Shown one piece after another: positions 17,590-35,573 of a stretch of DNA of 35,580 bases. Under the pieces are notes generated by a model. That model searched no databases. It saw nothing but the letters and a program-made list of their open reading frames with translations, and had not been told where the DNA came from. Source of the stretch: an uncultured Clostridia bacterium (GTDB lineage Bacteria > Bacillota > Clostridia > TANB77 > CAG-508); the NCBI GenBank assembly GCA_947626555.1, contig CANQSP010000012.1:1-35580 (forward strand), in the 5' to 3' direction. Position 1 is the first letter of the stretch. Each line of letters begins with the position of its first letter. A program made the position numbers and the translations under genes.

Positions 17590-17618
17590 TTGCAAATAGA
17601 AAAATTGTATGCTATATT
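17590..17618 (+). promoter_or_regulatory. promoter of ftsH
   Basis: TTGCAA (17590-17595), 17-bp spacer, TATATT (17613-17618). Confidence 0.55.
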
Positions 17619-17665
17619 TCATAAATAGAAAAAGGAAATTAAAGTACTTGAAGGAGGAAATTAAA

Positions 17666-19468
17666 TTGAAAAGCGGAATTAAAACATTAGCAATGTGGCT
17701 AATTATATTATTAATTTTTATAGTGGTAGTTTCATCAATAGTAAATAATAAGGACAATGAACTTGCATATTCAGAGTTAGTCAGCAAAATAGAGAGTGGA
17801 GAAGTTAAAGAAGTTAAAATTTCAGCTGATGGAACTAATGCAGAAATTTTATTAAAAAATGAAAATATAGCTAAAAAAGCAAATATTCCTAGTGTAGACA
17901 ACTTAATGGAAGTGGCAAATGATTCAATGAAAGCAAATAATATAGTAATATCACAAGAATCTGAATCAATATTTGTTATGCTATTAAGTTTACTTACACC
18001 GGTCGGAATACTTATAATATTCTTAATATTCTGGTTCTTCATAATGAGTGGAGGAAATCAACCAGGTGGCAACAAAACAATGACATTTGGCAAGAGTAAA
18101 GCAAAAATGATTAATCCACAAGATAAAGCCAAAGTAACATTTAAAGATGTTGCAGGTGTTGATGAAGAAAAAGAAGAATTAGAGGAAATAGTAGAATTTT
18201 TAAAGAATCCAAGAAAATTTACAGAAATGGGTGCAAGAATACCTAAAGGAGTTTTATTAGTCGGAAATCCTGGTACAGGTAAAACATTACTTGCAAAAGC
18301 AGTTGCAGGAGAAGCAGGAGTACCATTCTTTATTATAAGTGGTTCAGACTTCGTAGAAATGTTCGTTGGTGTTGGTGCATCTAGGGTAAGAGATTTATTT
18401 GAAGAAGCAAAGAAAAAAGCACCATGTATAGTATTTATAGATGAGATTGATGCAGTTGGTCGTCAAAGAGGAGCAGGCTTAGGTGGTGGACATGATGAAA
18501 GAGAGCAAACATTAAATCAATTATTAGTTGAAATGGATGGTTTCGCAGAAAATGAGGGAGTTATTGTATTAGCAGCTACAAACAGACCAGACATATTAGA
18601 CAAAGCATTATTAAGACCAGGAAGATTTGATAGACAAATAGTAGTATCTAGTCCAGATGTAAAAGCAAGAGAACAAATATTGGAAGTTCACAGTAGGAAA
18701 AAACGTTTAGCAAATGATGTAGACTTACGAGTAATTGCAAAAAACACATCAGGTTTTTCAGGAGCAGACCTAGAAAATGTATTAAATGAAGCAGCACTTT
18801 TAGCAGCAAGAAGAAATGTACCAGAAATATCTATGAAAGAAATAGAAGATGCCATGGTAAAAGTTACAATGGGACCTGAAAAGAGAACAAGAGTAAGAAG
18901 TGAAAAAGAAAATAAATTAGTAGCATATCATGAAGCAGGTCATGCAGTAGTAAGTAGATTCTTACCAACACAGGATCCAGTACATCAAATATCAATAGTA
19001 CCAAGAGGTATGGCTGGTGGTTATACAATGTATAGACCAACAGAAGACAAGAACTTCATGTCAAAATCAGAAATGGAAGAAACAATTGTATCACTATTAG
19101 GTGGTAGAGTTGCAGAAAAATTGATATTAGATGATATTTCAACAGGGGCAAGCAACGATATAGAAAGAGCAACAAAAATTGCAAGAAACATGGTTACAAA
19201 ATATGGTATGAGCGATAAAATAGGAACAATAATGTTAGGAACAGGTCAAGAAGAAGTCTTTCTAGGCAGGGATATTGCTCAAGGAAAAGAGTATTCAGAA
19301 GAAACAGCTTCAATTATAGATGAAGAAGTTAAGAAAATTATAGACACAGCATTCAACAGAGCAGCACAAATTTTAAGAGATCATGTAGACAAATTACACA
19401 GCGTAGCAGGAGTTCTTTTAGAAAAAGAGAAAATTGACGGAGAAGAATTTGATAAAATATTTGAGTAA
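17666..19468 (+). CDS. ftsH: ATP-dependent zinc metalloprotease FtsH
   Basis: [44 protein letters not shown] 17666 with GGAGG 8 nt upstream preferred over ORF-track 17609, which overlaps the predicted -10. Confidence 0.96.
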
Positions 19469-19472
19469 ACTA

Positions 19473-19611
19473 TTAAACTATTAGGGACGGGGTTAAATAG
19501 TTTAACAAAAAAGTATTTACATTGTATGCAAAACATTAATATTAATGTTTTGCATACAGGCATATAATTTTACTTTTGTTAAACTATTTAACCCCGTCCC
19601 TAATAGTTTAA
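19473..19611. repeat. 139-bp nested palindromic element (BIME/MITE-like): two 38-bp perfect inverted arms flanking a 36-bp perfect palindrome
   Basis: TTAAACTATTAGGGACGGGGTTAAATAGTTTAACAAAA (19473-19510) vs its exact reverse complement (19574-19611); centre TGTATGCAAAACATTAATATTAATGTTTTGCATACA (19523-19558). Confidence 0.9.
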
Positions 19612-19639
19612 TGCTTTGAAGGAGAGTGAAAATATCAAT

Positions 19640-20563
19640 ATGAGTGATAATATTAATGATAATATGAATATTAATAAAATGCCTATAGCGCTAGTTACAG
19701 GAGCATCTTCTGGAATAGGAAGAGACATGGCGAGATACTTAAATAAATTAGGATATAATCTTATTATAACTTCAAGAGATAAGGACAAGTTAGAGCAATT
19801 AAAAACTGAATTAGAAAATGATAACAAGCAAAGTGAAGAAATTAATAAGAATAGCAAAAAAGATAAAGATAAGAATATGAAAAGAAATATAAAAAATAAT
19901 ACAAAAAGTAATATAAAAAGTAATGCAAATGTTAATACGAGTGCAAATATAGATATAATTTTAGCGGATTTAAGTAAGCAAGAAGAATGTATTAGCTTAT
20001 ACAAACAGGTAAAAGAAAAGTATAAAAATATAGATATATTAATTAATAATGCTGGTTTTGGACTATTTGGTTCATTTCTAGAAACAGATTTACAAACAGA
20101 AATGGATATGATTGATGTAAATGTAAAAGCAGTACACATATTAGCAAAACTATTTATGCAAGATATGGTAAGAGCAAATAAAGGCACTATTTTAAATGTT
20201 GCCTCTGTTGCAGGCTTTATGCCAGGACCATTAATGGCAACTTACTATTGTACTAAAAATTATGTATTTAGACTATCTGAAGCATTAAGAGAAGAACTTA
20301 AAAAGAAGAACTCAAATGTAAAAATATCTGTACTATGTCCAGGACCTGTAGCTACTAATTTTAATAAAGTAGCAAAGGTAAAGTTTAACTTAAAAGAGGC
20401 ATCTAGTGAATATGTTGCAAAATATGCAATAGACAAGCTATTAAAACATAAATTTTTAATAATACCAGGCTTATCTGTAAAGATGGTTAGATTTTTTAGT
20501 AAAATAACACCAGATAATATTTTAGCTAAAGTTTGTTATCACATGCAAGAGAAAAAAGGTTAA
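19640..20563 (+). CDS. short-chain dehydrogenase/reductase (SDR family)
   Basis: ALVTGASSGIGRDMARYL, NNAGFGLFG, ATYYCTKNYVFRLSEAL, LCPGPVATNF; ORF track begins at TTG 19616, ATG 19640 also possible. Confidence 0.9.
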   Translation: MSDNINDNMNINKMPIALVTGASSGIGRDMARYLNKLGYNLIITSRDKDKLEQLKTELENDNKQSEEINKNSKKDKDKNMKRNIKNNTKSNIKSNANVNTSANIDIILADLSKQEECISLYKQVKEKYKNIDILINNAGFGLFGSFLETDLQTEMDMIDVNVKAVHILAKLFMQDMVRANKGTILNVASVAGFMPGPLMATYYCTKNYVFRLSEALREELKKKNSNVKISVLCPGPVATNFNKVAKVKFNLKEASSEYVAKYAIDKLLKHKFLIIPGLSVKMVRFFSKITPDNILAKVCYHMQEKKG

Positions 20564-20595
20564 AAGTAAAATTTAGGCGAAAATTATTTAACGAA

Positions 20596-20647
20596 AATTT
20601 GGGGACGGAGGAAAAAATGAGAAATTTTTCCTCCGTCCCCAAATTTC
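20596..20647. repeat. REP-like perfect hairpin with 22-bp arms
   Basis: AAATTTGGGGACGGAGGAAAAA (20596-20617) - AATGAGAA - TTTTTCCTCCGTCCCCAAATTT (20626-20647). Confidence 0.88.
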
Positions 20648-22190: not shown

Positions 22191-25100
22191 ATGAAAGATA
22201 TTGATAAAAAACTAATTAAGATGGAGAAAAGCAAAAGGACAGACAAGAAAAGAGTTATAAATAAAAAGCTGGTTACAAGTACAGGAATAGGGTTAATAGT
22301 AGTAATATTATTAGGAATATTACTATTTAATGCTATGTTTAATAATACGCAACAAATGAGTAATAAATATAATCCAGAACTAGCAGTTGCGATGGAATAT
22401 CCAAGGGTTACAGCTGGAGAAGAAAATGTTCCAAACACAAATTATGTCAAATTCGATGCATTCTTTTTAAAAGACTTAGATGGTGATGGTTATGCAGATA
22501 AAATAAGAGGAACATGTTTGGGATTATCAGATACAGATACTTTATATTTAAATCTAAATGTTCTAACTAATGGTACTTTAGAAAATGGACATATAGAAAT
22601 ACAAGGAAAAAATATAAATTTTAAAACAGCAATAGTGGAAGATGATGTAATACTTGGAGATTATATATCAGAGAATACAACAGAAATTAATTTAAAAAAT
22701 GTAAAAAGAGGAACTCAAAAGCTAATATATGGAACTATTAAAGCTCCAAGTTTAGACAATGATACCAAAAAATATAGTAGTAAAATAAACAAAGTAATAT
22801 TAACAGGAACACATAGAGCAGATAATGGACAAACTACAGCAATTAGAAAGGAAATAAATTTTACAGTAGATTGGCATGCAAGCGTATCATGTAACATTTA
22901 CAATTCTAAAGAAGCACAAGATGTAAGCAAAGCAGTAGATAGAGAAAATGGAAGTGTAAACTTGTCATTCTATATAGGAACAAAGGAAGAAAAAAATGAG
23001 GCAATTCTTAAATCTTCATATTTAAGTGGAACTATACCACCACTTAATGGATATATGCCAATAAAGGTAGAAATAACAGGAGCAGACATAACATCTACAT
23101 ATGATTATAATACAGGAAATTTTGAAATAACAAAATTGTCTGAAATAAATTCAAATAAGGTAGTAACGAAAGCTGTACCAAGAGATAATACATATGATTT
23201 TAATGTAATGTATCCAATACAAGCTTATGATGAATTAGGTTCAGATACAATAAGTATACAAATTCCAGTTCAAGCATATTATGAAGGGTATAATAATGAA
23301 AATAAAGAATTTGAAAATCCTATAAAATCAAATATTGCTACAGAAACATTGTGCTTCTTGTGGAGAAAAGGTGCTTTTGGAGGAATAGCAAGATTTGATG
23401 TAACAGTTGGAACGTATAGAAAATTTGACAAGCAGTATGTAGTATCAAAAAGAGAGCCACTAAAATTATATAATAAAACAGAAGAGCAAACATATGATAC
23501 TTATAAAGTTGATTGGTATGCAAGTATTGGTTCAGATGGAAATGGATATTCTATACGTATGAAGGAACAACCACAGGAGAAAGATGAAGATAGATTATTA
23601 AATAGCGAAAATCAATGGTATGATATGTCTGCATTCACAAAAAATATTGGAATATATTTTAGCGGAGCAAGCTTAACCTTAGGGGATAATGGAGAAATAA
23701 GAGTATATAATGCAGATAATGAACAATTATTACATACATTTACAAAAGATGATTGGGGAAAATATAATGATTCAACACCATTTATGTATGGAACACCAGT
23801 TACACACATAAAAGTAGAAACAAGTAGTGCAAATAGAAATACTGAATTAATAGTGCATAACATAAAAGAAATTAATGATGCAGAAGTAGTATCAAAATTT
23901 GGAAAGACAGAATTTGATAAATTACAATATATATATTCATATTTGGATGGAGATGTAAAAGCACAAAATGGGAACCAATATACAGATATAAATATGGATG
24001 AAAATTTTGCTTTATATGAGGCACCAATTTCTGTAGCAACAATAGATATAACAAAAGATATATTTGGAACTCAAAAAGAAGAAGAAGATGTTAATATAAC
24101 AATTAAAGCAGATGCATCTGGATATAATATGGAAAAGTGGAAAAATGGCAAATTTTTGGTAGAGTTACCAAAAGAAGTATTAGACATAAAAATTAATAGC
24201 ATTATATCTTCAGATAAAAGTGTTAATATTTTAGCACACGAAATATATGAACAACAAGGACAGAAATTCATACAAATAGAAACAGAAAATGAAACTCCTA
24301 CTAACTATGATTTAGTAATAAATTGCAATCTAACAGCTGATCCAAGAATTACAACACAAACAAAGCCATTAAAATTATATGCAATAAATGAAAATAATGA
24401 AAATTATAAAAATGCAATTAACGATACATATGATATAGATGGAGATTTAAACATAGTAGAAAAAATAAATTATGCAGAAGATGATATGTATTTCATATCA
24501 CCAAGCTCATTGATAACAGATCAACAAGCTACGAATTATAATAATAATGGAGATATAGTAGTAGCACCGCAAGTAGCAATGATAGACAAAAAAGAAGCTC
24601 ATACTGCGACTATAAAAGTAAATATTAAAAATGATTATGGTAGTACAGTAAGTGAAGTAAAGATTGTAGGAAAAATACCAACTAAAGGAAATACATATGT
24701 AATAGATGGAGAAAGTTTAGGCTCAACATACAATACAACAATGCAAGGTGCAATGACAATCCCAGAAGAACTAAAACAATATGTAACAGTATATTATTCT
24801 GATAAAGAAGATGCAACAGCGGACTTAGAAGATGAATATTGTAATTGGACACAAACTCCTGATTTTACAAAAGTAAAATCATACTTAATAGATTTTGGAA
24901 ACTATAAATTAAGTGTAGGTGAAGAAAGAAGTTTCAGTTATAATATAGAGATACCTACAGGAGTAAAATATAATGATATATCATATAGTACGCACGCAGT
25001 ATATTTCTGTTTAGATACAACTGGAGGAAAGTTCAAAACTGAAACAGAAACAAGTAAATTGGGATTTAGTATAGAGAGAAAATATAATCTTGTTTTAAAG

Positions 25101-28100
25101 AAATTAAGACAAGGAATGCAAACCGCAGTACAAGGTGCAGTATTCACAGTAAAAGAAGAAAATACTAATGATAGTAAGATAGGAACAACAAATGGACAAG
25201 GAACATTTACAATAAAAGATTTATATGTAGATAGAACATATATACTAGAAGAAGTTCGTACACCAAATTCTTTTGAAAAAAATACAGTAGAATACAAGTT
25301 TAAAGTTAAAGTATCTGAAAGTACTGATGAATTAGTACTAGAGCCTATATCAGGTCAAGGAACTATAAAGACTGCAAATATAGTACAAGCAAGAGAAGAA
25401 AATAAAGGTGCATTAAATATCGATGTAGAAAATATACCAAAATATCAAATAGTATTAACAAAGAAAGAAAAAAATTCAGCAAATACAATACCAGGAGCAA
25501 CATATAACATAAAAGGTGGAAATCTAGGAAGTGAAGGAATAACAATAGCTACAGATGGTAAAGGAAAATTAACAGTATTAGACTTATCAAGAGAAGTAGA
25601 ATATACTATAACTGAAATTTCTGCTGAAGGTTATTATGTAGATGAAACACCTAGAAAATTTAAATTAACAAATAACGGTGGAACGCTTCAATTTAAAACA
25701 TTATCAGGAACATTTACAAATACAAATGTAGTAATAGGAACAGGAGTATCGGGTACAGAAGCACTAGATAAAGTAGAGTTAGAACTACAAGATGAAAAAA
25801 TACCAACATACTCTGTAACATTAAAGAAATATGCTAAAGATAAAGATACTACTTTAAATGGAGCACAATTTAAAATTGAAGGAGAAGGAATAAAGGCAGG
25901 AGGAGAGATACTTACAACAAGTGATGCAGGAACTATAACTATAAATGGGTTATATGAATATATTGCAAGCAAACCAAAGATAACAGGAATATATACTGTA
26001 ACTGAAATAACTCCGCCTCAAGGGTATAGCTTAAATACGACACCTTTAAAATTTAAAGCACAAAAAAATGGTCAAAATTTAGAATTGAAAGTAATAAGTG
26101 GAAGCGAATTTATAAGGTCAGTAGGCTCAGATGGAGCAAAGAAGCAAGATATTACAGTGACAGGCTCAAGTATACAAATAGGATTGCAAGATGAACCACT
26201 ATTTAAAATAACGAAAGTAGAAAAAGGAACAAAAACACCTATACCAAATACTAAATTTAGGTTAATTGAATTAAACGAAAGATATGTAGAACAAGGACCT
26301 GCAAGAGATATTAATGGAGAAGAAGTCGGTGAATTAGAAACAATAAATGGAAAGACAATAAGAGTAGTAACAACAGATGAAGAAGGTGTAATTTCTTATG
26401 GATTAAGAAGCGGTTTATATAAAGCAGTAGAAGTTCAACCAGCAGATGGATATATACTTTCAGATAATGAACAAAGTAGAACATACTATTTTGGTATAGA
26501 TGTAAGTAAAGCACAAGAAACAAAACAAGGAGTATCTTGGGCAAATGAGGTAGCTAGTGGCAATTGGAACAAAGTTGAATCTGCTAAAAAGACTCAAGAC
26601 GAAGGAATTATAACAGTAGGATATTTTTCAGGTAAATTAGACTTAAATGGAGATGGAGTAGCAGATTTAACAGGTAAAAATAATGACTACAATGGATTTA
26701 TAGCAAAATATAATGGAGATGGAAGTTTACAGTTTGCAAAGAAAGTTTCATGTGATGAAAATACAAAGATTAAAGATATAATTGTAACACAAGATAGAGA
26801 ATATATAGTAGTTGGTTATTTTAATTATGGTAGTTTAAAAGTAGATGAACAGCAAACAGGTTTAACAAATACTACATTATTTGAAAAAGGTTTTGTTATG
26901 AAATTTACAGCCGATGGAACTTATTCTTGGAGTAAAGAAATTGCAGAAGCAAACAAAAATGTTAAAGCTGTTAGCGTAGTGGAAAATGGAAATAAAAATA
27001 TAATAGTTGGTGCAAATACTGATGGAAATGCAAAAATAGTAGAATATAATCAATCAGGAAACGAACAGAATAGAGCAGAAATACAAGATACAGTAGATAT
27101 AGAAGATATGACTACTAATTTAACGAATACTAGTATAATAGTAATAAGTTCAGGAAAGGAAGCAACAGAAACATCTACAACAGGAAGAATAGATACATAT
27201 CAAAATGGTGCAATTACATCAAATGCAACAGTAGATTTTAATCCATCAGCAATTACAAAGTTAAATACAGGAAGATATATTATAGTAGGAAACTATTTAA
27301 ATAGATCTCAAGAAGTAGAATCTAGTGGAGATTATGATAGTATTATTTTACAATATGATGGAAACTCTGCATTAAGTAATGCAAAGTTTATTAAAGGAAA
27401 TCTAGATGATATAGTTACATCAGTAGAAGCGACAAAAGATGGAGGCTTCTTAGTCGGTGCTTATACTCATAGTAGTACAGTAGATTTTAATAATGATGGA
27501 AATAATGAGATACAAGGCAAAGTAGGAAATACAGAGGCTTTAGTATTAAAGTATGATAATTCAGGAAATTATAGTTCATATAAACAAATTTCTGGTTCAG
27601 AAATGCAACAAGTAACAGATGTAGTAGAAAGAAAAGAAAATGAATTTGTAGCGGTAGGTTATTTTAACAGCCAAACAGTATCAGCAAATAAACCAAATTC
27701 ATACGAAATAAATTTGAACCGATTAAAATATACAGATGGATTTATATTAAACTATGGTGAAATAGTAACAGCACCAGAAATACCACAAAAGACAAATATT
27801 GAGGTAGAAAATGAATTAAAGAAATATGTTATTACTACAGAAGTAAAATTACTACAGGGTCAAAGCGAAAAAGGAGGAAGTATAACAGGGGATTCAGCAG
27901 GAGTTATTGAAACGGTACAACATGGCAAAAATAGTACATCAACAATTCAAATACAACCAAATTCAGGGTATAAAATTTTAAGTATAACAATAAATGACGA
28001 AGAGTATCCATTTACAGTAGAACAAAGTGGCACTGGATTAACATTACCAAATTTTACAAATATGACGAGTAACAAGCACATAGTAGTAACATTTAGTAAT

Positions 28101-31100
28101 ACAGTATCTAGTATAATAGTGCATCACTATTTAGATGGAACGCAAACTAATCCTCAACCTACAAAAGTATCAGATGATGAGACAAAAACAGGAAATATAG
28201 GAGAATATTACACAACAGCTCCACATACAGAATTAGAAAGATATGATTTGAAGAGAAAAGCAGATAATCAATATGACTTACCAACAAATAAGAGTGGTAC
28301 ATATACACAAAATGTTCAAGAGGTTACATATTTATATGTAGAGAGAAAAGTGCCATTAACAGTACATCATTACTTAGAAGGAACACAAACACCAGTAACA
28401 TTAGCAAATGGAAGTAGGGCTCAAGACGTAATAACGCAAGAAAATATAGGAACAGCATATACAACACAAGCATTAAAACCATATGATGATGGAACAGAGA
28501 CAGATAGAAGCAAAAAGCTAGCTGAAAAATATGAACTATGCAGAACACCAACCAATGCACAAGGACAATATCAATATCCTGGTGTAGAAGTAACATACGA
28601 ATATAGAATAAAGTCATATAATGTAATAACAAAAGTAAAAACACATACAGAATTAGATAAATATGATAATGGAGTACAAGTAAAAGGCGGAAAAATATTA
28701 GGAGAAGGACAAACTCCATATGAAAAAGTATTGCATGGAGAAAGTAATGAATTACCAATAACAGCAACACCGGATTCAAAATACAGAATAAAAGGAATAA
28801 CATTAAATGATAGACCATTGGTAGAAGGAACGGATTATACAGTAAATATTGCAGACGGAAGTATAACATTAAAAACAATAAAGAACATAACACAAGATCA
28901 AATAATAGTAGTAGAATTTGAAAAAGAGAAAACAGATATATTAGTTACAAAAGAGTGGAATCACGAAAATAATGTGTATGAGAAACCTACGAAAGCAGAA
29001 GTAAAATTAATTGATGTAAATCATCCAGAAAGAATATTAGGAACGGTAGAATTATCAGCAGCAAATGGCTACACACATACATTTACAGGACTAGAAAAAT
29101 ATTATAATAATGATGAAGAAATAATATATACAGTAATAGAAGAAGAAACAGATGGGGAAAATCCAATATATTATGAGCCAGTAATTACAACAGGGGAAGG
29201 TTCAATAAAAGTAGTAAATACATTTATAGGACCAGTTATTTCACAAAATAAAACATATGAAATAATAGCAAAAGATGGTTCAAAAGTGACAACAAGAGAT
29301 TATGTAATGGAACAAGAAAAAATAAGGTACACAATAACAGTAACAAATGAAGGACAAATAGAAAGAGATGTAGCAATAAAAGATGAAATACCAGCAGGAA
29401 CAACATTTGTAGAAGGCTCAATAAAAATAAATGGAAATGAAAGCTATGAATTAAAAGATGGTAGCCTAGCAAGCGAAAAAACACAAGCAAATTTAAGAGA
29501 TGGAATAACAGTAACAGTACCACCTAGAGCTCAAAAAGAAAATGGTCAAATAGTATTAAGCTTTGAAGTAATAGCTAATAAAATAGCAGAAGGTGCAGGT
29601 TATGCAAAAGATATATACAATACTGCAGTAGTTGAAGATGGTTCAATAGACAAAACAGAGCAAGAAAAAGAAGCTTCATCAGATAAAGTTACAGAAAAGA
29701 AACCACATATAACAATATCAAAGGCATCAGCAGAAGGAGAAAAAGTATCATATGCAAAACCAGGAAGAATAGCAATAGGAGACGAAATAATATATACAAT
29801 AACAGTAAGAAATGATGGAGAAGCTCCAGGAACGGTAAATATTAAAGACAAAATTCCTACAGCAACAGTGTATAAAGATGAAAGCTTAAGCGTAACAGGA
29901 CAATTAGAAACAGAGCAAGAATATACAATAGATCAATTAACCGGAGAGGGAATAGAAGTTACTGTACCAGAAAAAGAGGGAGAAGTAGTAGTTCAATTTT
30001 CTGTAATAGTAACAGGAATGAAAACAGTAGAAGTAGAAGGAACAGAAGGACCTGAAGAACAAGAAGTAGAATTAGATAACGAAGAATTAATAGTAAATAG
30101 TGCAACAGTAGAGAAGAACTTAGAAAATCCAAATATAGAAAAGGAAACAGAAACAACAAATGAAGTAGAAAATGTATATGTAAAACCAATAATTTCAGAA
30201 AACAAAACATTAACAACACAATATGGATTTGGATATGTTGTAGAAGATGAAATAATAACATATGCAGTAGTAGTATATAATGCAGGAGGATTAGCAAAAG
30301 ACGTAAAAATACAAGATATAATACCAGATGGAACAACGTTTATACCTGAAAGTATAAGAGTAAATGGAAATACTATGTATAGAGAAGAAGATTACTCTAC
30401 AAAAACAGCAGAAAACTTAGAAGAAGGAATAATAGTATATGTTCCAGAAAAAGAAAATGGAATAGATGGACAAACTATATTAAGCTTTAAAGTATCAGTA
30501 AATAAATTACCAGATGGAATACTTATGAAACAAATAAGAAACACAGCAATAGTAGATGATAGGCAAACAAATGAAAAACAAACAATGGTAAATAAAACAG
30601 ATATAGAATTTAAGAAAACAAGTAATCCAGAAACAGGCTCAATAGTAAGAAAGGGAGACGAAATAACATATACAATAGAGGCAGAAAACAAAGGAACAGC
30701 AGCACAAGACATAGTTATAAGAGATGATATACCAGAAGGAACAGAATTTGTAGAAGACAGTTTAACGATTACAAGAACAATAGGAGAAAATTACTTTAAA
30801 TATGGAAAAGCAGACTTAGAAAGAGGAATAGAGATAAATCTATTTGATGGAGAAAAATTAACATTAGAATTTAAAGTAAAGGTAAAAAATATAAAAGATG
30901 GAGACAAAATAAAGAATGTAGCTGTAATAAATGGTATACCATCGAATGAAACAGAGCATACATATTCAGAAGCAGTAATATCAGGAGAAAAAATAGCAGA
31001 AACAACAAATAAAAAAGCATATGTAATACAAGGAGAACAAATAACATATACAATTAAATTAAAGAACGAAGGAACAACAGCAGGATATGCTATAGTAAAA

Positions 31101-34100
31101 GACACAATACCAGCGAGAACTACATTTGTAGAAGGCTCTATAAAAGTAAATGGAGAATCTAGTTACGAAATAGGAAGTAAATTAAATCATGAAGGAAAGG
31201 AATTAGAACCAAAAACAGAGATAGACTTGAGTCAAAAAACTCCAGAATATCTAGAAGAAGGAATAAAAGTATATGTTCCAGAAAAGACATACAATGCAGA
31301 AACAAGTAGATGGGAAAATGGAGAGGTAACAGTAAGCTTTGATGTAACAGTAAATGAAGAAACAGAAGGAGATGTAAGAAATAAAGCAGTAATAGACAAA
31401 GATCCAACAAATCCAGATGACCCAGATTTAGACGATCCAGATAATCCAAAAGAGCCAGAAGAGCCAACAAATGAGGTAGTAATACCAGTAGTAACATATG
31501 AAAAAGAATCAGCAATAATAGAAAGAAGAAAACCAGAACTAGCTTTAGAAGAAAACGAAGCAAGTGTAGGAGACAAAATAAAATACACAATTAGAATAAG
31601 CAATACAGGAAGTATAGACGTAGAAAATATAGAAGTAAAAGATAATATACCAGATGGTGTAGAAATAATAAACATAGAAAATGAAGGACACTTAGAAGAT
31701 GGTATAATAACATGGCAGATAGCACAAGTACAAGCAAATTCAGAAAAGACAGTAAGCTTCACAGTAAAAGTAAAATATACAAGAGATGAATACACAATAG
31801 CCAATATAGCTACAGTAGATGGAAAGGAAACAAACGAAACAGAAAATCCATATAAAAAGCCTGATCCACAAATAGAAAGCCAAGTTGATAAAACTGGAAC
31901 AGAAAAAATAACAACAAAAGATTCAAAAGTATATTATGAAATAAGATATAATGCACAAGTAGATGAATTTGTAGGAAAAGCAAGAATAACAATAGTAGAT
32001 ACTTTACCATACCCAATAGACACAGAAGATGAAAACTTAATATTAGACGAAGGAGAATATGAAGAAGTAGAAGATTTAGAAACAGGAGAAACAAAATACA
32101 CAGTAACATGGGTACAAGAAATAGATCCAATAGATACATTTGAAGCAGGAGAAGCAAAAGAAATATCAATAACAAAAGTATTAGGAGTAAACTTCATATA
32201 TGGAAGTCTAAACGATAATACAGGAAGTATGGAAAACAAAGTAGATGCAAAAATAGAATTATTAGAACCAATAACAAAAGAAGATCCAGATGAGCCAGAT
32301 GAGCCAACAGAATATGAGAAAGTAAAAGAAGACAATAAAGAAGATACGCATGATACTTCAATAGAAATACCGGCAAAAGTAGTAGTACATCACTACATCT
32401 ATGATGAAGAATTACAAGAAGAAACAGACGTAAGCATAGCACCAGATGTAACAATGGATGGATTTGTAGGAAGAGAGTATACTACAACACCATCAGAAGA
32501 GGTACCAGCAAACTACACATGTAAAAATGCAAAGCCAGATAAATACGAAGGAAAATTTACCGAAGAAGACATAGAAGTAACATACTACTATAGTTTAACA
32601 ACACCAGAAGTAACAAACGAAGTAGAAAAAACAGCAACAGTGGTACAAACTGACCCAGATGGGTCAATTGGGGACAGTCCCCAATTGAGAAGAGAAGACG
32701 GAATAGTAACATACACAATAAGATACAAAGCAACAATAAAAGACTACATAGGAAAAGCAGTAATAGAGATAGTAGATACATTACCATATGCAATAGACAC
32801 AACTAAAGCGGAGGTAGACTTAGATGGTGGAGAGTATAACGCAGAGAATAATACAATTACATGGCTAGAGACAATAGAGGGAATAGATACGTATGCTAAT
32901 AAAGATGTGCAACAAGAAAATGAAGAAGAAAGTAGTCAAGGACAACAAGGAACTAGCGAAGAACAAGGCGAGGGTTCTGTAGGACAAGGAACTGATGAAG
33001 AACAAGAAAAAATACAAGGACAATATGAAAACGGAACATATACAATAGAAATAGTAAAAGAAATTAAAGTAGTATATGTAGACCAAGATGTAACAAAAGA
33101 TATAGTAAATGAAGTAACAGGAAAAACGAATTTATATTATCCAGAAAATCATCCAGGAAAGGATCCAGAAGATGAGTTAGTAACGGAAGAAGCAACAGAT
33201 GACGAAGTGGTAAAACAAAAATACAAGGCAAATTTAAGAGTAGAGAAGATATGGCAAGATAATGATAATTTAAAACAACATCGTCCAGAAAGTGTAATGA
33301 TAACAATAAAAGAAAAAAATAGTGAAGAAATAGTATTTGAAAATATGGAAGGACTAGATGAAGAAGTAAAAGAAGTTCTAATAGAAATACTAAGTGAAGA
33401 AGGAAAGACAGTAGAGCTTAGCGAAGAAAACAACTGGTTATATGAAGTAACAGATTTACCAAAATATGATGAAACAGGAAGGAAATTAGAATATGTAGTA
33501 ACTGAAAGTGAAGTAAACGAAAATGACTTAGAATACTATGAGGAGCCAGAGATAGTAAACTTAGAAGATCAAACAGATGAAGCGACAAACTATGTGGTAA
33601 GAGTAAAGAATGCATACAAACTATTTGAAACAGATTTAAATACAGAGTTAACAAAAGATGGACCAGAGCAAATACATGCATCTAGAGAAATATTAAATTA
33701 TAAGATTCACTTTACAGCAGAAATAACAGATTATATAGGCGAATCAAAAGTAATATTAGTAGATACATTGCCATATGAAATAGACGAAGAAAAACCATAT
33801 GACTTAGCTGGAGGAACATATGATAGACTAGAAAAAACAATAACATGGGAAGATGACTTAGGACATATTAATGTAGGAAAAGAAGGAACATATTTAGTAG
33901 ATATAACAAAAGAAATATCATTAGTATATAAAGATTTAGATGCAACACAAGAAGAGATGATAAATGAAGTAAAAGGACGAATAGAGTTATATGAAACAGA
34001 ACAAAAAGACGAAAAAGAAACAACATATGAAACCGACATTAATATAAATGGAAAAGTAATAGTAAGATATGTAGATATAGACTCTAAGGAAGATATAACA

Positions 34101-35573
34101 TATAAAGAAATAGACGAAAATGGACAAGAACAAGTAAAATTATATAATTATGAAATAGAAGAAAAAGTCGGAACAGATTATGAAACAGAGCAAAAAGAGA
34201 TAGAAAACTACATATTTGTAGAACATACGGGCAATATACAAGGAAAAGTAACAGAAGAAGAGCAAGAAGTAATATACTATTATACAAGAGTACCAGCAAA
34301 AGTAATTGTAAAATATCAAGATGAAGAAGGAAATCCTTTAGATGAAGATGAAACAATATTAGGACAAATATGGGACCCATACACAACAGAAGAAAAAGAA
34401 TTTGAAGACTACATATTAGAGGAAGTAAAAGGCAATAAAGAAGGAACAATGGAAGAAACGGAGCAAGAAGTAGTATATGTATATAGAAGAATACCAGCAA
34501 AAGTAGTAGTAAGATATCTAGAAAAAGATACAGAAGAAGTGCTAGCAGAAGAGCTTATAATAGAAGGATTATCAGGATACAACTATGAAACAGAAAGGAA
34601 ACCAATTGAGAATTATAGGTCAGCAGAGCCAGAACCAGAAAATGCAACTGGAAAAATGAAAGTAGAAAAAGACTTAAGTAAGAAACCAACAGAACCAGGA
34701 TACATAGTAAATGACACAATAATAGTAACTTACTATTATGAAAAAATACCAAGTGGAACAGTAAAAGTAAAACATGTAGATATAGACACAAGAGAGGATA
34801 TAACATATACAGAAGAACATGCAGATGGAACAATAGAAGAAAAGACATATGGATATGATATAGAAGGATATGTAGGAGACAAATATGAGACAAAGCCAGA
34901 AGACATACCATATTACAATTTAGTAAAAGTACCAGAAAATGCAGAAGGAGAGTTAACAGAGGAAGAAGATACAGTAATATACTACTATGAAAAGAAACCA
35001 TTTAACTTTAGTGTAGAAAAAGTATTCAGAAGTGTAATATTAAATGGAGAAGTAAAAGACATAATAAATAATAAGTCTATGAAAGTAGAATTAGTATCAG
35101 CAACTATTCCAACTGCAAAATTACAAGTAACATATAAAATTATAGTAAAGAATACAGGAGAAATAGATGGAAAAGCAAAAGTAGTAGAAATGTTACCAGA
35201 AGGATATAGACTAGTAAATATAGCAGATTACTGGAATCAAATATCAGATGTAAGCTTAGAAGCAGTGGTAGAACTAAAAGCAGGAGAAGAAAAAGAATTA
35301 GAAGTAACAACAGAATGGATAAATGGAGAATCAAACTTTGGAATATTTGAAAATACAGTAAAAGTAGTAGATGTAGAAAATCCAGCAAACTTTGCAGAAA
35401 CAAGTGAAGAAGACAACACTGCGACAGCAGAATTAATAACAAGTATCAAAACAGGTATAGAAGTAAATATAATCTCAATACTTACTATAATAAGTTTAAC
35501 AATTTTATTAATAATATTAATATATGTATATAAAAGAGAAAAAAAGATGAAATTTTATAATAAAAACTGGTAA
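22191..35573 (+). CDS. giant (4460 aa) modular cell-surface protein/adhesin with Cna-B, propeller-like, MucBP-like and DUF11-like modules
   Basis: Single uninterrupted ORF; RBS GGAGG; N-terminal TM, DLDGDGYADKI, repeated Cna-B and DUF11 patterns ('ITYTIxVxNEG...VxDxIPxGTTFVEGSIxVNG'), C-terminal TM followed by KREKKMKFYNKNW. Confidence 0.93.
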   Translation: MKDIDKKLIKMEKSKRTDKKRVINKKLVTSTGIGLIVVILLGILLFNAMFNNTQQMSNKYNPELAVAMEYPRVTAGEENVPNTNYVKFDAFFLKDLDGDGYADKIRGTCLGLSDTDTLYLNLNVLTNGTLENGHIEIQGKNINFKTAIVEDDVILGDYISENTTEINLKNVKRGTQKLIYGTIKAPSLDNDTKKYSSKINKVILTGTHRADNGQTTAIRKEINFTVDWHASVSCNIYNSKEAQDVSKAVDRENGSVNLSFYIGTKEEKNEAILKSSYLSGTIPPLNGYMPIKVEITGADITSTYDYNTGNFEITKLSEINSNKVVTKAVPRDNTYDFNVMYPIQAYDELGSDTISIQIPVQAYYEGYNNENKEFENPIKSNIATETLCFLWRKGAFGGIARFDVTVGTYRKFDKQYVVSKREPLKLYNKTEEQTYDTYKVDWYASIGSDGNGYSIRMKEQPQEKDEDRLLNSENQWYDMSAFTKNIGIYFSGASLTLGDNGEIRVYNADNEQLLHTFTKDDWGKYNDSTPFMYGTPVTHIKVETSSANRNTELIVHNIKEINDAEVVSKFGKTEFDKLQYIYSYLDGDVKAQNGNQYTDINMDENFALYEAPISVATIDITKDIFGTQKEEEDVNITIKADASGYNMEKWKNGKFLVELPKEVLDIKINSIISSDKSVNILAHEIYEQQGQKFIQIETENETPTNYDLVINCNLTADPRITTQTKPLKLYAINENNENYKNAINDTYDIDGDLNIVEKINYAEDDMYFISPSSLITDQQATNYNNNGDIVVAPQVAMIDKKEAHTATIKVNIKNDYGSTVSEVKIVGKIPTKGNTYVIDGESLGSTYNTTMQGAMTIPEELKQYVTVYYSDKEDATADLEDEYCNWTQTPDFTKVKSYLIDFGNYKLSVGEERSFSYNIEIPTGVKYNDISYSTHAVYFCLDTTGGKFKTETETSKLGFSIERKYNLVLKKLRQGMQTAVQGAVFTVKEENTNDSKIGTTNGQGTFTIKDLYVDRTYILEEVRTPNSFEKNTVEYKFKVKVSESTDELVLEPISGQGTIKTANIVQAREENKGALNIDVENIPKYQIVLTKKEKNSANTIPGATYNIKGGNLGSEGITIATDGKGKLTVLDLSREVEYTITEISAEGYYVDETPRKFKLTNNGGTLQFKTLSGTFTNTNVVIGTGVSGTEALDKVELELQDEKIPTYSVTLKKYAKDKDTTLNGAQFKIEGEGIKAGGEILTTSDAGTITINGLYEYIASKPKITGIYTVTEITPPQGYSLNTTPLKFKAQKNGQNLELKVISGSEFIRSVGSDGAKKQDITVTGSSIQIGLQDEPLFKITKVEKGTKTPIPNTKFRLIELNERYVEQGPARDINGEEVGELETINGKTIRVVTTDEEGVISYGLRSGLYKAVEVQPADGYILSDNEQSRTYYFGIDVSKAQETKQGVSWANEVASGNWNKVESAKKTQDEGIITVGYFSGKLDLNGDGVADLTGKNNDYNGFIAKYNGDGSLQFAKKVSCDENTKIKDIIVTQDREYIVVGYFNYGSLKVDEQQTGLTNTTLFEKGFVMKFTADGTYSWSKEIAEANKNVKAVSVVENGNKNIIVGANTDGNAKIVEYNQSGNEQNRAEIQDTVDIEDMTTNLTNTSIIVISSGKEATETSTTGRIDTYQNGAITSNATVDFNPSAITKLNTGRYIIVGNYLNRSQEVESSGDYDSIILQYDGNSALSNAKFIKGNLDDIVTSVEATKDGGFLVGAYTHSSTVDFNNDGNNEIQGKVGNTEALVLKYDNSGNYSSYKQISGSEMQQVTDVVERKENEFVAVGYFNSQTVSANKPNSYEINLNRLKYTDGFILNYGEIVTAPEIPQKTNIEVENELKKYVITTEVKLLQGQSEKGGSITGDSAGVIETVQHGKNSTSTIQIQPNSGYKILSITINDEEYPFTVEQSGTGLTLPNFTNMTSNKHIVVTFSNTVSSIIVHHYLDGTQTNPQPTKVSDDETKTGNIGEYYTTAPHTELERYDLKRKADNQYDLPTNKSGTYTQNVQEVTYLYVERKVPLTVHHYLEGTQTPVTLANGSRAQDVITQENIGTAYTTQALKPYDDGTETDRSKKLAEKYELCRTPTNAQGQYQYPGVEVTYEYRIKSYNVITKVKTHTELDKYDNGVQVKGGKILGEGQTPYEKVLHGESNELPITATPDSKYRIKGITLNDRPLVEGTDYTVNIADGSITLKTIKNITQDQIIVVEFEKEKTDILVTKEWNHENNVYEKPTKAEVKLIDVNHPERILGTVELSAANGYTHTFTGLEKYYNNDEEIIYTVIEEETDGENPIYYEPVITTGEGSIKVVNTFIGPVISQNKTYEIIAKDGSKVTTRDYVMEQEKIRYTITVTNEGQIERDVAIKDEIPAGTTFVEGSIKINGNESYELKDGSLASEKTQANLRDGITVTVPPRAQKENGQIVLSFEVIANKIAEGAGYAKDIYNTAVVEDGSIDKTEQEKEASSDKVTEKKPHITISKASAEGEKVSYAKPGRIAIGDEIIYTITVRNDGEAPGTVNIKDKIPTATVYKDESLSVTGQLETEQEYTIDQLTGEGIEVTVPEKEGEVVVQFSVIVTGMKTVEVEGTEGPEEQEVELDNEELIVNSATVEKNLENPNIEKETETTNEVENVYVKPIISENKTLTTQYGFGYVVEDEIITYAVVVYNAGGLAKDVKIQDIIPDGTTFIPESIRVNGNTMYREEDYSTKTAENLEEGIIVYVPEKENGIDGQTILSFKVSVNKLPDGILMKQIRNTAIVDDRQTNEKQTMVNKTDIEFKKTSNPETGSIVRKGDEITYTIEAENKGTAAQDIVIRDDIPEGTEFVEDSLTITRTIGENYFKYGKADLERGIEINLFDGEKLTLEFKVKVKNIKDGDKIKNVAVINGIPSNETEHTYSEAVISGEKIAETTNKKAYVIQGEQITYTIKLKNEGTTAGYAIVKDTIPARTTFVEGSIKVNGESSYEIGSKLNHEGKELEPKTEIDLSQKTPEYLEEGIKVYVPEKTYNAETSRWENGEVTVSFDVTVNEETEGDVRNKAVIDKDPTNPDDPDLDDPDNPKEPEEPTNEVVIPVVTYEKESAIIERRKPELALEENEASVGDKIKYTIRISNTGSIDVENIEVKDNIPDGVEIINIENEGHLEDGIITWQIAQVQANSEKTVSFTVKVKYTRDEYTIANIATVDGKETNETENPYKKPDPQIESQVDKTGTEKITTKDSKVYYEIRYNAQVDEFVGKARITIVDTLPYPIDTEDENLILDEGEYEEVEDLETGETKYTVTWVQEIDPIDTFEAGEAKEISITKVLGVNFIYGSLNDNTGSMENKVDAKIELLEPITKEDPDEPDEPTEYEKVKEDNKEDTHDTSIEIPAKVVVHHYIYDEELQEETDVSIAPDVTMDGFVGREYTTTPSEEVPANYTCKNAKPDKYEGKFTEEDIEVTYYYSLTTPEVTNEVEKTATVVQTDPDGSIGDSPQLRREDGIVTYTIRYKATIKDYIGKAVIEIVDTLPYAIDTTKAEVDLDGGEYNAENNTITWLETIEGIDTYANKDVQQENEEESSQGQQGTSEEQGEGSVGQGTDEEQEKIQGQYENGTYTIEIVKEIKVVYVDQDVTKDIVNEVTGKTNLYYPENHPGKDPEDELVTEEATDDEVVKQKYKANLRVEKIWQDNDNLKQHRPESVMITIKEKNSEEIVFENMEGLDEEVKEVLIEILSEEGKTVELSEENNWLYEVTDLPKYDETGRKLEYVVTESEVNENDLEYYEEPEIVNLEDQTDEATNYVVRVKNAYKLFETDLNTELTKDGPEQIHASREILNYKIHFTAEITDYIGESKVILVDTLPYEIDEEKPYDLAGGTYDRLEKTITWEDDLGHINVGKEGTYLVDITKEISLVYKDLDATQEEMINEVKGRIELYETEQKDEKETTYETDININGKVIVRYVDIDSKEDITYKEIDENGQEQVKLYNYEIEEKVGTDYETEQKEIENYIFVEHTGNIQGKVTEEEQEVIYYYTRVPAKVIVKYQDEEGNPLDEDETILGQIWDPYTTEEKEFEDYILEEVKGNKEGTMEETEQEVVYVYRRIPAKVVVRYLEKDTEEVLAEELIIEGLSGYNYETERKPIENYRSAEPEPENATGKMKVEKDLSKKPTEPGYIVNDTIIVTYYYEKIPSGTVKVKHVDIDTREDITYTEEHADGTIEEKTYGYDIEGYVGDKYETKPEDIPYYNLVKVPENAEGELTEEEDTVIYYYEKKPFNFSVEKVFRSVILNGEVKDIINNKSMKVELVSATIPTAKLQVTYKIIVKNTGEIDGKAKVVEMLPEGYRLVNIADYWNQISDVSLEAVVELKAGEEKELEVTTEWINGESNFGIFENTVKVVDVENPANFAETSEEDNTATAELITSIKTGIEVNIISILTIISLTILLIILIYVYKREKKMKFYNKNW
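25080..26500 (+). other. four tandem Cna-B/SpaA-like domains
   Basis: Repeated pattern 'L-KK...GA-F-V...T-G-GT-TI--LY---TY-L-E---P-GY' beginning at YNLVLKKLRQ, YQIVLTKKEK, YSVTLKKYAK, FKITKVEKGT. Confidence 0.7.
26528..27770 (+). other. SBBP/beta-propeller-like repeat module
   Basis: Recurrent 'VGYFxG..DLNGDG....GFIAKYNGDGSLQFAKKV' type units: IITVGYFSG, YIVVGYFNYG, NIIVGANTDG, YIIVGNYLN, FLVGAYTHS, FVAVGYFNS. Confidence 0.6.
29240..31860 (+). other. about six tandem DUF11-like repeats
   Basis: Six modules beginning ISQNKTYEI, ITISKASAE, ISENKTLTT, IEFKKTSNP, ISGEKIAET, PELALEENEA, each with xxYTIxxxNxGxxxxxVxIxDxIPxGTxF. Confidence 0.75.
32651..32688. repeat. compound REP-like palindrome inside the giant gene
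   Basis: TGACCC-AGAT-GGGTCA (32651-32666) overlapping perfect palindrome TCAATTGGGGAC-A-GTCCCCAATTGA (32664-32688). Confidence 0.85.
34040..35000 (+). other. C-terminal tandem MucBP-like modules
   Basis: Repeats of '(K)V(I/V)V(R/K)Y-D-D-...G--Y-TE...Y-L-----N--G---EE---V-YYY' (GKVIVRYVDIDSKED, AKVIVKYQDEEGNPL, AKVVVRYLEKDTEEV, GTVKVKHVDIDTRED). Confidence 0.65.

Follow-up and report, generated by a model that had tools for sequence, protein, structure and literature searches.

The element between ftsH and the SDR gene

The window, by which we mean the whole stretch of 35,580 nucleotides that was analysed, carries an ftsH gene on the plus strand (17609–19468; Peptidase_M41, AAA and FtsH_ext domains) followed on the same strand by a short-chain dehydrogenase (SDR) gene (19640–20563; adh_short domain), whose Shine-Dalgarno site GAAGGAG lies at 19618–19624. 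The gap between them holds a 139-bp sequence that starts 4–5 nt past the ftsH stop codon and ends 6–9 nt ahead of this Shine-Dalgarno site, in agreement with the position given in an earlier note on this DNA. It is bounded by a left arm of 38 nt (19473–19510, plus strand) and a right arm of 38 nt (19574–19611, minus strand), which were verified to be exact reverse complements of each other. Within them, the consensus arm of the repeat family described below occupies 19474–19504 on the left (TAAACTATTAGGGACGGGGTTAAATAGTTTA, with GGGACGG at 19484–19490) and 19580–19610 on the right. Each arm alone also forms a hairpin, as the note had claimed: TAAACTATT pairs with AATAGTTTA and AGGGACGGGGTTA makes up the loop.

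The note had further described an independent 36-bp palindrome between the arms. The palindrome is present (19523–19558) and perfect, but it is not independent. When the 75-nt interior between the family arms (19505–19579) was aligned with that of another locus, L058, the two matched except for a central deletion of 100 nt, the 175-nt interior being intact in L058. The 175-nt interior contains an inverted repeat of its own (GCAAAACATTAATATT), and the outer portion of this repeat, left over in the shortened copy, forms the 36-bp palindrome.

The predicted folding energy of the 139 nt as single-stranded DNA is −53.3 kcal/mol, where dinucleotide shuffles average −10.8 (z = −16.9), and a z of −18.2 was obtained for the RNA fold. 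None of 200 dinucleotide shuffles matched either fold. A search for T-run terminators found no terminator-like site at the element, and the Rfam search returned only sub-threshold miRNA and snoRNA matches, which are due to the long hairpin.

An extra partial copy, TAAACTAT (19466–19473, plus strand), abuts the outside of the left arm, and the same duplication is found beside the left arm in two sister species (G008 and G020). Since this copy holds the ftsH stop codon (19466–19468), the original end of ftsH seems to have given way to sequence derived from the element. The FtsH end of the outgroup G019 differs from that of the window. Downstream of the SDR gene lies a second, different GGGACGG palindrome (20595–20646), composed of AAATTTGGGGACGGAGGAAAAA and its inverse. 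Its arm resembles those of a RAYT in genome G003 (L098), which places it in another family than the window element, so that two RAYT-type families flank the SDR gene. Further on, a single open reading frame of 4460 codons (22191–35573) fills the end of the contig.

A family of short intergenic elements

The genome to which the window belongs (G000), that of an uncultured gut Clostridia bacterium, is a draft of 1.45 Mb in 65 contigs, 76% complete, and all genomes compared here are draft MAGs, a type of assembly in which repeats can be mis-joined. In its own genome the 139-mer gave 234 BLAST matches, and GGGACGG occurs 282 times against 14 times for the reversed control pattern. Reading 53 stretches around the copies resolved at least 63 element clusters: 28 simple arm pairs, 25 nested double pairs, in which two arms point inward and two point back, and 10 partial ones. 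The 53 complete elements measure 68–343 bp and are non-coding, the longest ATG-initiated reading frame among them having 43 codons. They are intergenic and often lie 0–12 nt from a Shine-Dalgarno site or a stop codon.

The family arm is 31 nt long (TAAACTAnnnGGGACGGGGTTAAATAGTTTA) and consists of a 7-bp stem, TAAACTA/TAGTTTA, with a GGGACG core. In three species the stem is paired at 93% or more at every position, and arm columns 8–10 and 17–20 are variable; in these statistics the presence of GGGACG was required for an arm to be counted. The conserved GGGACG is located in the loop of the arm hairpin. The two arms of an element are identical to each other in 70 of 81 pairs in G000, in 53 of 60 in G008 and in all 14 in G020, as compared to about 15, 15 and 6 after shuffling. 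No excess of target-site duplications was detected: their mean length was 1.74 versus 1.66 in shuffles, and duplications of at least 4 nt were seen at 3 of 53 elements versus 4.25 expected.

Two further features were considered and dropped. Some flanks are complementary beyond the arms, as if elements had inserted into hairpin tips, but in the long cases (L048, L058 and L165) the complementary flanks are better explained as the decayed outer arms of an older element, inside which a younger one lies. An extension of the arm hairpin into the flanks was seen at one position in G000 only, and was absent from G008 and G020.

A RAYT-like transposase is bracketed by the same arms

The genome contains two Y1_Tnp genes. 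The RAYT-like one, on contig C28, is single-copy, encodes 252 aa and is bracketed by inward-pointing copies of the 31-nt family arm. These flanking arms are identical in G000 and in G020. In G008 they show an exact inverted match over 16 nt. The gene occupies the same locus (E60–E62) in G000 and G008. The protein matches PF01797 with 51–54 bits (cut-off 23), retains both the HUH motif (as HMH) and the tyrosine motif (CINYIHQNP), and is weakly similar to the solved TnpAREP structure 4er8 (E = 0.015). NCBIfam REP_Tyr_transpos is matched below its cut-off only. About 110 aa follow the Y1 domain, in which a strong C-terminal HTH domain was looked for and not found; weak HTH-like matches were obtained in relatives only (HTH_23 and Sigma70_r4 in L082, Sigma70_r3 in L090). 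The dN/dS values of 0.06–0.12 between the three species show that the gene is under purifying selection.

The arm pattern GGGACGGGGTTAAA occurs 190 times in G000, 178 times in G008 and 132 times in G020, and 0–2 times in 36 other relatives. A RAYT with 85% identity is likewise found in exactly these three genomes, the other relatives having RAYTs of about 30–45% identity or none. Hundreds of arms and this RAYT thus occur together in exactly 3 of the 27 genomes of the genus.

A comparable arrangement is seen at other RAYTs. GGGAC cores were found near 28 of 30 RAYT loci, in nearly all of them pointing inward from both sides, with stems that differ from locus to locus; exceptions or weak cases are L115 (other repeats), L108 (where only one side has a core) and L026 (where there is just one palindrome). 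Arm types at these genes include GAGTCAAAAGGGACGGCC.., TAAATTTTAGGGACGGGTC.. and GGAAAGATTTGGGACGC.., and GAACAAGGGGACGGACTTTTTGTTC outside the genus. Several relatives' arms carry GGGGACAC or GGGGACAG, and those of the C28 RAYT do not. One arm pattern was counted 21 times in G019 and in no other genome. Another, restricted to G007 and G040, occurs six times in each of them, where it belongs to one RAYT unit and two short elements. On the sequences compared, most RAYTs of the genus have a private arm type.

At several RAYT loci (e.g. L089–L097) each end has two cores about 33–35 nt apart, GGGACG outside and GGGGACAC inside; such ends recall the nested double-arm elements of the C28-arm family. 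The second RAYT of the window's genome (L026, C53:310–1080) lies beside a GGGGACAGTCCCC palindrome, upstream of a radA-like gene, and its core is unlike that of the C28 family.

Sites are kept and interiors are replaced

Orthologous sites were compared through element-masked flanks within contiguous stretches, G008, G020 and G019 being read in part. One element (E25) was left out of the counts as a non-orthologous match, and the comparison from G008 to G000 was not used because it is circular, G000 having been read only around elements. Flank identity was 96% between G020 and G008 and about 87% for both G000/G008 and G000/G020. Orthologous sites were occupied in 42 of 43 cases (14/14 for G020/G008, 19/20 for G000/G008 and 9/9 for G000/G020), and the sole vacant site, in the G000/G008 comparison, retains a CCGTCCCT remnant. 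No movement was seen across the three species; as nearly all sites are common to them, insertion could have ceased.

The interiors behaved otherwise. Although pair numbers are small, identity was below 60% in 4 of 11 interiors between G020 and G008, in 14 of 18 between G000 and G008 and in all 9 between G000 and G020. A separate G000/G008 comparison gave a median identity of 0.47 for orthologous interiors, with 0.41 in the shuffled control, and the interior was nearer to a paralogue of the same genome than to its orthologue in 18 of 19 and 17 of 19 cases. Several kinds of change were seen: unrelated sequence had taken the place of the interior, a nested layer had been added or lost, an apparent inversion was accompanied by a deletion, or the centre had been deleted. 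Interior lengths run from 6 to about 280 nt, and a single site may have 6–8 nt in one species and about 280 nt in another. Outer arms differ at only 0–2 of 31 positions between G000 and G008, and the differences between species mostly consist of the same variant on both sides. Across the three species, sites are hardly ever gained or lost, while what the elements contain is renewed quickly, with both arms changing in concert.

The ftsH site is a case in point. Its arms are identical in the three species, and it contains one interior in G008 and G020 (94% identical) and another in G000. The element is absent from this site in the outgroup G019 and in several other members of the genus. Other types of GGGACG hairpin lie in or after the ftsH–SDR gap in G005, G011 and G016. 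More generally, the same intergenic gaps hold GGGAC palindromes of different families across species (the ftsH–SDR gaps L119–L136, and E22 and E44). Such gaps look as if they had been colonised repeatedly.

Nature of the element

We consider that the 139-bp sequence is a non-autonomous, MITE- or REPIN-like element of a RAYT/TIRYT system, with a probability of about 0.85. The C28 RAYT is most likely the mover of these elements, a role suggested by its co-occurrence with them and by their common anatomy. The inverted arms would be the putative recognition ends of this Y1/HUH transposase. In single-stranded DNA, such as the lagging-strand template, each arm could form its 7-bp hairpin and present GGGACG, and the whole element could fold into one long hairpin, a potential substrate for cutting and joining by the transposase.

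The earlier note had likened the sequence to a pair of inverted REPs (BIME) or a small MITE, and had proposed a search for other copies, for a RAYT and for empty sites. All three were found, in the form of the family, of the C28 transposase lying between copies of the same arms and of the ftsH–SDR gap without element in G019, and the overall comparison is supported. Its two specific versions are not. An element of the GTAG type known from enterobacteria and Pseudomonas would share the inverted hairpin doublets, the intergenic location and the tie to a RAYT, but the foot of the hairpin lacks GT[AG]G, what is conserved is the GGGACG of the loop, and the sub-threshold REP_Tyr_transpos match does not fit; we regard this assignment as very improbable. 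Still harder to maintain is a classical MITE, i.e. an insertion sequence of the DDE-transposase type that was shortened by deletion and has terminal inverted repeats and target-site duplications. Short, dispersed, non-coding elements with inverted ends would be expected of it. Yet each end is a palindrome in its own right, a Y1 transposase is the sole gene that was found enclosed by such ends, and the lack of target-site duplications above chance argues against this origin.

The note had also held that the same palindrome at orthologous ftsH 3' ends, with no other copy in the genome, would point to a local terminator or regulator. A bidirectional terminator or an mRNA-stabilising hairpin of ftsH, kept by virtue of a function of its own and without any link to mobile DNA, would account for the very stable predicted RNA hairpin, for the occurrence of the element behind ftsH in G008 and G020 as well, and for the many copies that lie a few nucleotides from a stop codon or a Shine-Dalgarno site. 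The same arms nevertheless recur in dozens of copies elsewhere, the site is without the element in G019 and several other members of the genus, a T-tract is lacking and the arms are those of a transposase gene. Since the genome contains many other copies and the interior at the ftsH site is a different one in the sister species, the palindrome cannot be explained as a purely local terminator. We thus judge this origin improbable and largely refuted; a secondary regulatory effect may exist. Any local function of the element as a terminator is hypothetical, although a very strong RNA hairpin is predicted between ftsH and the SDR gene.

How interiors might be exchanged

The interiors would have been exchanged by recombination or by transposase action at resident arms, and not by fresh insertion elsewhere. 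Exchange of this kind would account for the conserved sites, the conserved flanks and the paired changes in the arms. It may be brought about by the RAYT, by homologous gene conversion or by a template switch inside the hairpin. We tentatively propose, at odds clearly below even, that resident arm pairs are long-lived docking sites at which the RAYT, or hairpin-mediated strand exchange initiated by it, swaps whole elements in place. If this is true, a domesticated single-strand transposase carries out cassette exchange genome-wide, by which new interiors and matched new arm variants arrive at an unchanging set of sites.

The turnover of interiors, as distinct from the nature of the elements, could instead reflect ordinary homologous gene conversion between copies or errors of metagenome assembly, with no exchange driven by a transposase; we give this somewhat less than an even chance. 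The copies have 31-nt arms and related interiors in common, arm pairs with mixed variants exist at two sites (E5 and E7), and the genomes are draft MAGs. On the other hand, outer arm variants only about 8–10 nt from the element boundary change in both arms together and the adjacent flanks are unchanged, which would leave very little homology for two crossovers. The extreme difference in interior length at one site, together with the agreement between G008 and G020 in their interiors at several sites, argues against assembly error. One RAYT clade with private arms in three sister species, at two distances (flank identity of 96% and about 87%), separates two processes that are usually lumped. 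With site gain and loss set apart from content turnover and concerted arm change, the role of the RAYT becomes directly testable.

Relation to known systems

RAYT-linked repeats rank with the most abundant bacterial repeats. Among the systems compared, the family most closely resembles the TIRYT elements described in 2013 by Di Nocera et al. (PMC3733652). A literature search on the term TIRYT found only this paper and Quentin et al. 2018 (PMC6006769). TIRYT genes are described there as flanked by TIRs, some of them double-palindromic, with the motif GGGGWSAS and moderately abundant dispersed copies (PMC3733652). The TnpAY1 survey equates most TIRYTs with its subclass 2.1 and finds no REP-like sequences near that subclass (PMC6006769), whereas hairpin ends of REP-like character are present here at TIRYT-type RAYTs of an uncultured Clostridia genus.

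As in the TIRYT/TIRtron system (PMC3733652), a Y1/HUH RAYT-like gene is located between inverted, potentially self-complementary TIRs, which recur genome-wide as dimers and carry a G-rich motif (GGGGWSAS there, GGGACG here). The core here, GGGACGGGG, is one position off GGGGWSAS, and some relatives have GGGGACAC. Unlike the moderately abundant TIRYT/TIRtron copies, hundreds of arms are found in about 1.5 Mb, and nested double-arm elements occur. Turnover of interiors at fixed sites was not found in the portions consulted of PMC3733652 and PMC6006769.

REPINs (Bertels & Rainey 2011, PMC3116915) are a functional analogue of the family: inverted doublets of short hairpins form one larger hairpin, and an intergenic population is tied to one vertically inherited RAYT. 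In contrast to REPINs, a GTAG-type foot is lacking here, the conserved motif lies in the loop, and interiors of 6 to about 280 nt change and the arms stay. Two other groups described in PMC3733652 bear comparison. The ORF1152 TIR family of Stenotrophomonas maltophilia likewise has self-complementary TIRYT TIRs that mostly form close dimers, but its sequence is another and it belongs to another phylum. CGTC-tagged REPs recall the CGTC found on the reverse strand of the core here; their tag is terminal, unpaired and without a transposase, whereas in the present family CGTC is an internal part of the arm and there is an associated transposase.
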